Origin: Dermatophagoides farinae
Lineage: Eukaryota > Arthropoda > Arachnida > Sarcoptiformes > Pyroglyphidae
Direction: 5' to 3'
NCBI RefSeq assembly: GCF_024713945.1
Contig: NC_134678.1
Span: 434,001 to 498,000 of the forward strand
Length of the DNA stretch: 64,000 nt
Shown: in pieces, positions 53,593 to 56,191 of the stretch
How positions within the stretch are numbered: the first letter of the stretch is position 1
How the letters are laid out: each line of letters begins with the position of its first letter
Notes under the pieces: model-generated
What the model saw: the letters and a program-made list of their open reading frames with translations, nothing else
Databases searched by the model: none
Told to the model about the DNA's origin: nothing
Made by a program: the position numbers and the translations under genes

Positions 53593-56073
53593 ATGTTAAC
53601 ACATGGTCTAATCAATGATGGCTCTTGGGAGCTACGAATTGTTGTTACCGATTTGAAAATTGAAAAAAGATTACGTGCTAAAGGTGATATGCATATTGGT
53701 GGATTGATATTGAAACTTGTTGAAGAGCTTGGTAAGTTTTTTTTTGGTTTTCTTAAAAAAATTCTTTATTTTTTTTATTTGTAATTTGATCCAAAATGAA
53801 TATTTGTTTGTTTTTGTGTATGTGATTGGCCTGAATTTTTTCTCATTGTGGCTAATCAAATCAACTTGATGTGTGTGTGTGTAGGCAGCTGAATTGCACC
53901 ATCGACAAATATTCCATATATGGATGTGAATGCGCGCCTAAGCTAGTTTTTTTATATTATATTCAAAGACAAGATGAAATTTTGTAAACCAATTCTTTTT
54001 TTTGTTCTTCTTTCTATTAGATGTAACGGCCGATTGGTCTGATCATGCATTATGGTGGCCAATGAAAAATCAATGGCTAAAACGTACACGAACAACATTG
54101 GATCAGGCCGGTATACAGGCCGATACGTTGTTGCATTTTACACCGATGCATAAAAATCTTCGTGTTCAATTACCCGATCTTCGTTATGTTGATTCAAGAG
54201 TGGATTTTTCCATACCAACTTTTAATGCCGTTGTACAGCTTTGTGATGATCTTGGTATTCGTCATGCAGAAGAATTATCTTTCTCTAGGCCATTAATAAT
54301 GGCACATTTGAAACAAAATTATCCAAATCTTGATATTACACCACTGCAACGACAATTTGATCAAATTGGACCGATTACACAGAATGAAAGTACATTGAAT
54401 CAGGTGACCAATGTTAGCACATTGACCCGTGCTATGAGTGCACAACCATTTGTCGATTTTGCACCATCATCCATGAATGGAAATAATAGTGGTCCAATTA
54501 TAGCCACGGCTCGTAATGTACCAGTGGAAAAACCAAGCTTTCTATATCCAGTTGAAGCTGTCAAACCAACATTGATGACAAGCCCGGTAACACCTAGTGC
54601 TGAAGGAAAAGCAACATTATTACGTCCAAAATCATTGATTGAAAAAGCACGACTTAATGCCGGTTGGTTAGATTCAAATCTTTCCATTTATGAACAAGGT
54701 GTTCGTGAATATGACCTTCTATTATTGCGTTTTAAATATTATAATTTCTATGATTTAAATCCAAAATTGGATGCCGTACGCATCAATCAACTATATGAAC
54801 AAGCAAAATGGTCATTGATCACAGAAGAAGTTGATTGTACTGAAGAAGAAATGTTTCTATTTGCTGGCCTACAATTACAAATCAATATATTGGCATTGAA
54901 TCCAGATCCAAATGATCAATACATTGAAGTCAATGATGATATTGATGCAGCGTTGGATGAATTACAATTAACATTAGAAGGATCCAATGCAATTCAATAT
55001 AATTATCAACAACAATCCAATGGTACATCAACAATTAATTATGGCTATTCCGATATACCCGAACTGTCCGGTTATCTACGTTTTGCTAAACATAAATTAT
55101 TTACATTGAAAAATTTTAAACGTTATTATTTCATATTGAAAGATACGAATCTGAAATTATATAAAAGTATTGAAGATCGTCAAGGATCACCAGCATTTAT
55201 TATCAATCTAAAAGGTTGTGATATAACACCAGATCTGAATGTTACACAGAATAAATATGGTTTCAAAATACATAATTATAATGATGATGGACAAACGGAA
55301 TATTGGCTACGATGTGAATCGGAAAAACAATATGCAGAATGGATAACTGCTTGTCGTTTAGCAACCAAAGGACGGACAATGGCTGATGCATCATATCGTA
55401 CCGAAGTACAAACAACGAGAGATTTTCTGAAAAAACAACAATATTCCGGATCACCAGTGATGCCTACACAATCGAATAAAATTGCAATTAATCCCGATGA
55501 TTATATAGCCTTAAGATTTTTAAGACGACGTGATCAACATGTAAGCAAAAGAAATGAAAATATTTTTTTTTTTGAATTCTAACCAAAATTTTCATTTACT
55601 CTCTCGATAAAGGTAACAAACAGAATCTATGATTCACATGGAAATTTTAAATCAATGCCATCATTACAATGTAAATTGAATTATATTCGTGCATGGCAAG
55701 CATTACCAAAATTTGGACTTTCATTTTTTGTTGTCCATTTTTTGAATACTAAAAGAGAGGTATTATATACATACATTTATTATTATTGTTATTGTGCATG
55801 AAAAATCTATTTTTAGATCTCATTCTACATTACACCATGAATGATGAGTAGTAGTAACGTTTTTTTTCTCATTCATCTATTTTTGTATTATTATTCAAGG
55901 AAATTCTTGGCATTGCTCCCAATCGTCTTGTACGTATTGATATGCATACTGGTGATACAATTCGTACATGGCCCTATGCACGAATGAAATCATGGAACGT
56001 TAATTGGGAAATAAAAAAATTATGTGTTGAATTCGATGATGAAATGTTGGAATTTGAATGTCTTAGTGCCTGA
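53593..56073 (+). CDS. Kindlin / fermitin (UNC-112), C-terminal end displaced to +1 frame
   Basis: Exons 53593-53731, 54021-55540, 55613-55759 and 55900-56073. The zero frame gives 659 residues and stops at TGA 56071-56073. Kindlins bind integrin beta tails and activate integrins with talin at focal adhesions. The F0/F1 start ([18 protein letters not shown]), then [20 protein letters not shown] and [13 protein letters not shown], are family hallmarks. A PH domain (about residues 360-460, [20 protein letters not shown]) is inserted in F2, and F3 includes [18 protein letters not shown]. The expected end of F3 follows directly after the TGA but in the +1 frame, ending at 56191 (see separate entry). 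With it the protein would have about 698 residues, close to other kindlins (human kindlin-2 has 680). Upstream of beta-spectrin on the same strand. Confidence 0.92.
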
Positions 56074-56191
56074 TTGTAAAGTACCACATGAATTCATCGG
56101 CGGCTATATATTCTTATCGATGCGTTCAAAAGAACATAATCAAACATTGAATGAAAATCTATTCTTTAAATTAACAAGTGGATGGATCTGA
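56071..56191 (+). other. Kindlin C-terminal 39 codons in the +1 frame
   Basis: Skipping T56071 gives 39 open codons starting [20 protein letters not shown] and ending FFKLTSGWI then TGA (56189-56191). This matches the conserved kindlin end. The junction reads AGT GCC TGA T, so a +1 shift at the stop codon (GCC then GAT) restores the family sequence. No GT-AG intron fits the one-base offset. Confidence 0.85.

Follow-up and report, generated by a model that had tools for sequence, protein, structure and literature searches.

Does the kindlin gene of the mite Dermatophagoides farinae need a ribosomal frameshift to encode a complete protein? We analysed a 64,000-nucleotide stretch of this genome (contig NC_134678.1, positions 434,001 to 498,000; hereafter the window, whose numbering we use for the kindlin gene), in which a kindlin gene runs into a stop codon before its conserved end and the missing end follows in the +1 frame. 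An earlier sequence-only reading of the window proposed recoding like that of antizyme at this site and listed an assembly error among the alternatives. If another animal gene used +1 recoding of the antizyme kind, this would be of importance, and it is therefore useful to show that the kindlin case is likely an artefact. We conclude that, very probably, the gene itself is ordinary and intact and the frame break is a one-base insertion error left in the assembly.

A kindlin gene with its end in the +1 frame

With GT-AG junctions alone considered, the gene model joins four coding exons on the forward strand. Exon 1 (53593..53731) holds the ATG and the start of the F0 domain, which is present as a Pfam Kindlin_2_N match (PF18124, E 2.5e-35) at residues 8-91. 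Exon 2 (54021..55540) carries the remaining F0 through the PH domain, with matches to FERM_M and PH, and is followed by exon 3 (55613..55759). The FERM_M match spans residues 293-592, and the PH domain is inserted within it at residues 395-495. Exon 4 (55900..56073), placed by the gene model and by alignment with kindlin-2, encodes the zero-frame part of F3 and ends at TGA 56071-56073. Joined, the exons give 659 open codons before this stop, and the upstream frame of the model is otherwise free of lesions. The domain matches and the kindlin-2 alignment bear out the earlier identification of the gene as a kindlin, and the zero frame stops where that reading placed the stop.

The conserved end of the protein lies on the same strand at 56072..56191, where the +1 frame supplies 39 F3-end codons and a TGA (56189-56191). 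When the +1-shifted product is aligned with kindlin-2 (5xpy), the junction and all that follows are gap-free as far as the chain's final residue, and the nearest gap is a single residue, several residues upstream of the junction. Kindlin-3 chains likewise align without a gap at the junction. After the junction, 27 of the 39 residues are identical to kindlin-2, so the coding match in the +1 frame is not due to chance. The direction of the shift can be read directly from the assembly, as the sequence-only reading had done. Plain readthrough of the TGA would add just one residue, because the next zero-frame codons are TTG TAA.

What would be lost without the shift? F3 does not run to the conserved C-terminus in a single frame, and the end of kindlin-2 is reached only with the 39 codons of the +1 frame, which upholds the claim that the end of F3 is lost in the zero frame. 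In a kindlin-3 structure, the integrin-binding cleft of F3 is bounded by the last helix and by strands 5-7 (PMC7373317). From this position of the cleft, the zero-frame product would lack part of it. The broken F3 frame is a fault in the assembled version of the gene. On its sequence the gene is still classed as a kindlin, since homology is judged on the whole alignment.

The second kindlin gene and the surplus base

We searched the same genome with the kindlin-end protein and obtained three matches, two of which are pieces of the window gene and the third a second gene on another contig, C1. The third match covers residues 2-96 of the 97-residue query at 53% identity and is stop-free. The gene on C1 is a second, diverged kindlin, with 31% and 34% identity over two long tblastn alignments that extend across its introns. 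The mite has two kindlins, and the one on C1 (C1:418500-424000) keeps its C-terminal frame intact and ends in an acidic extension. No kindlin relative was found in the bacterial and archaeal genome contigs or the viral contigs searched.

At the site of the break, the C1 gene is open (C1:422349-422630) and reads GAA TGT ATT AGT GCC GAT TGT AAA, whereas the window gene reads GAA TGT CTT AGT GCC T GAT TGT AAA. The DNA alignment of the two genes contains one single-base gap. Because this gap falls at T56071 (56071..56071, forward strand), between GCC and GAT, the surplus base that breaks the frame is on parsimony this T, which lies outside any homopolymer, just as the sequence-only reading had placed it. 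The frame is uninterrupted in this closest available gene, so TGA-T is not a feature of the kindlin family. The earlier reading named, as grounds to refute it, a related species with an uninterrupted frame at this codon and no conserved TGA-T. The sole relative compared, a paralog from the same genome, shows this pattern: it reads GCC GAT in frame and does not conserve the shift site. The real gene in the window probably reads GCC GAT without interruption and, with no recoding, encodes a normal protein of some 698 residues whose F3 domain is complete. We infer that T56071 is absent from the animals themselves.

Could T56071 instead be real? It might have arisen by recent insertion, as an allele either fixed or still polymorphic in the colony; this kindlin copy would then be cut short after residue 659, without the last part of the integrin-binding F3 domain. 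We consider this reading unlikely. The sequenced sample was a pool (about 3,000 mites collected), with 0.52% heterozygosity (PMC11074847), which leaves room for such an allele, as does the position of the surplus base outside a homopolymer. Moreover, the loss of one kindlin copy could be tolerated since a second gene exists. Against a real insertion, the +1 frame retains its 27 of 39 kindlin-2 residues and its own stop, and the upstream frame carries no other lesion. A gene in this state is either under constraint or bears a very young lesion. The remaining evidence on this point comes from other genes of the assembly.

Surplus bases elsewhere in the assembly

The D. farinae assembly (GCA_024713945.1), in which a group 1 allergen gene agrees at all 79 aligned residues with the PDB chain named Der f 1 variant, was put together from PacBio Sequel reads and polished with Illumina data at about 105-fold, and has a reported Merqury QV of 36.1 (PMC11074847). 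We compute from this value one error per about 4.1 kb (4,082 bases). Illumina polishing should nevertheless clear most isolated errors in unique sequence, a point against our reading of the kindlin break as an error.

How often do conserved genes of this assembly carry such breaks? In 62.4 Mb of genome on 22 contigs, we searched for five families and scored every candidate. The 176 matches (papain-like proteases, 38; Cpn60/TCP1, 26; Hsp70, 30; kinesin, 31; myosin head, 51) amount to 117.6 kb (117,603 bases) of profile-matched coding sequence. Neighbouring matches less than 120 bases apart formed 51 pairs, 43 of which imply 47-126 inserted bases and are intron-like. Three pairs are odd: two myosin pairs with 19 and 26 inserted bases, which we take as introns plus differences in loop length, and one nested myosin match with a meaningless negative value. 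The other five imply 1, 1, 1, 4 and 7 inserted bases, which leaves no room for an intron, and all five shift the frame by +1.

These five breaks sit in four genes, BiP and CCT-theta among them, and four of the five are on contigs C1-C10. CCT-theta (C8) has one surplus base in TTAGAT, and BiP (C9) has one at TTTG; both align without a gap at the break to a solved relative. An Hsp70 gene on C4 has two breaks, one at TTTCG and one in TCTGGAAAATG whose exact base the alignment leaves unassigned; this gene is gap-free over 440 residues and could be a true pseudogene. The fifth break, in a TCP1-alpha-like gene on C20, lies at a run of four T and leaves one residue extra even after the shift; the insertion there amounts either to a single base and a further codon or to four bases. 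The same type of lesion thus recurs in unrelated conserved genes, always in the +1 direction and in four of five cases as a single surplus base. No common shift motif is visible among the contexts of the five breaks, and only in the C20 gene does a zero-frame stop stand directly at the break. For these reasons the control breaks resemble insertion errors rather than programmed shifts.

A living mite would not be expected to lack BiP or CCT-theta, although either may have an intact second copy. That both genes show the same kind of lesion as kindlin also weighs against a real insertion allele at T56071. The sequence-only reading had argued that a base outside a homopolymer makes a sequencing slip less likely. 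Of the four clean control breaks, two do lie at runs of three T, in contrast to T56071, and this difference counts against an error. However, the other two surplus bases lie in TTAGAT and TCTGGAAAATG, one each, so the argument has little force in this assembly.

The control breaks correspond to one per about 23 kb, which is a lower bound because a break is visible only when both halves of a match score. At this rate, a gene of the size of kindlin is expected to hold about 0.09 breaks (95% interval 0.03-0.21), and the published CDS as a whole some 740. The breaks are not spread evenly over the families. None was found in the papain-like proteases, kinesins or myosins (three of five families; 120 of 176 matches). 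By eye, a kinase search with at least 134 matches (122 of 437 candidates scored) likewise showed no neighbouring pair less than 40 bases apart. Errors therefore appear to be uneven across the assembly. The kinase search is excluded from the rate, since 122 of its 437 candidates were scored, and so is the antizyme search, because a frameshift is already known for antizyme.

The small contigs C11-C21 deserve separate mention. Eight CCT-type chaperonin genes lie on them, in addition to the nine Cpn60-family genes of C1-C10, as do at least 25 kinase matches (122 of 437 candidates scored) and several genes for Hsp70, kinesin and myosin. Their chaperonin genes, except the broken one on C20, and their myosin genes are single open frames. 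The set resembles a compact eukaryotic genome of its own within the mite assembly, and C20 may belong to another organism. In a search for microsporidian rRNA, the matches among the candidates scored (5 of 1,710) were on C1, C4, C5 and C8.

Taken with the in-frame paralog, the same type of surplus base in other vital genes leads us to favour an assembly error over recoding at the kindlin site. In this respect the alternative that the sequence-only reading had listed fares better than its main proposal. Since surplus single bases occur in genes as conserved as BiP and CCT-theta, frame breaks in the published D. farinae assembly need to be checked in reads before they are given a biological reading.

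Recoding and known systems

What of recoding itself? In programmed +1 frameshifting at GCC UGA U, a ribosome halted at UGA would slip past U, take GAU as its next codon and go on to finish F3, and the ratio of truncated to full-length kindlin would be set in translation. We hold this to be highly improbable. The proposal further implies that GCC_UGA_U arose after the two kindlins separated and that a switch in translation, perhaps one that responds to polyamines as in antizyme, sets how much integrin-binding kindlin is made; for this the chances are just as slender. A candidate antizyme shift site on C10, TAT TCC TGA TGT, lies where the antizyme frame begins, and the ODC_AZ domain (PF02100) matches the genome only on C10 and not at kindlin (both of two candidates scored). 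The mite antizyme has the canonical TCC TGA T.

The kindlin site does share with this antizyme site a UGA followed by U, and its downstream frame is conserved. In addition, an Ala codon, GCG, before UGA is described as anomalously shift-prone in yeast antizyme (PMC5009743). These points favour frameshifting. Yet the C1 paralog is in frame and has no TGA-T, and the P-site codon is GCC rather than UCC. Antizyme shift-site variants include CCC_UGA and GCG_UGA_C (PMC5009743); GCC_UGA_U is neither UCC_UGA_U nor one of these known variants. The 100 bases after the kindlin TGA fold like shuffled sequence (z 0.28), which is a weak point against frameshifting, as the test covers nested structures only and has little power: by the same method, the mite antizyme site itself gives z 0.81, with no obvious simple hairpin in its next 100 bases.

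The likeness to UCC UGA U, on which the sequence-only reading relied, carries little weight. Conserved kindlin dictates Asp at this position, so any T inserted before GAT produces TGA-T automatically. When we simulated one-base insertions in the coding sequence of the window, 2.7-3.4% led promptly to TGA-T (1.8-3.4% when the between-codon estimate is included), and at the observed rate 14-26 such mimics are expected genome-wide. Thus, of the earlier interpretation, the kindlin, the mite as its source, the +1 shift and the loss of the F3 end stand, and the antizyme-like recoding is not supported.

We also scanned for frame switches by codon usage over 177 and 227 kb, with some loci overlapping, and dropped these scans as too weak. 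In the 227-kb scan the kindlin site came 45th among 150 candidates, the majority of them judged spurious as a group and not checked one by one, and the 177-kb scan gave two matches, both in low-complexity sequence. A search of Rfam at the kindlin site returned three sub-threshold snoRNA matches and nothing else. In the literature, judged by titles and the openings of abstracts, we found nothing relevant on Dermatophagoides kindlin or mite fermitin, and no paper on ribosomal frameshifting with mite antizyme.

Could the message be repaired at the RNA level? Editing might remove the base, or a tiny or unusual intron might be spliced out, and the sole support for either is that one base has to be missing. 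Conserved residues adjoin the junction on both sides, so splicing of an intron would delete conserved sequence, and we know of no case of single-U removal from an animal nuclear mRNA. We give this explanation almost no credence.

How, then, does the gene compare with known systems? Like the kindlins of the fermitin family (kindlin-2 and kindlin-3), it has F0, a FERM domain with an inserted PH domain, and an F3 with the conserved C-terminus; unlike them, its last 39 codons are out of frame in this assembly. With the shift site of ornithine decarboxylase antizyme (UCC_UGA_U), it shares UGA in the A site, a following U and a +1 product that reads GAU (Asp), but it has GCC in the P site, it encodes an unrelated protein, and the site is absent from the paralog. 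The antizyme of Saccharomyces cerevisiae (GCG_UGA_C; PMC5009743) likewise places an Ala codon before UGA, whereas in kindlin this codon is GCC and the next base is U rather than C. The remaining comparison is with the residual indel errors described as fragmenting genes in long-read assemblies (PMC12007338). The kindlin base lies outside a homopolymer; it is likewise a surplus base between conserved flanks, of a kind that recurs in the assembly.
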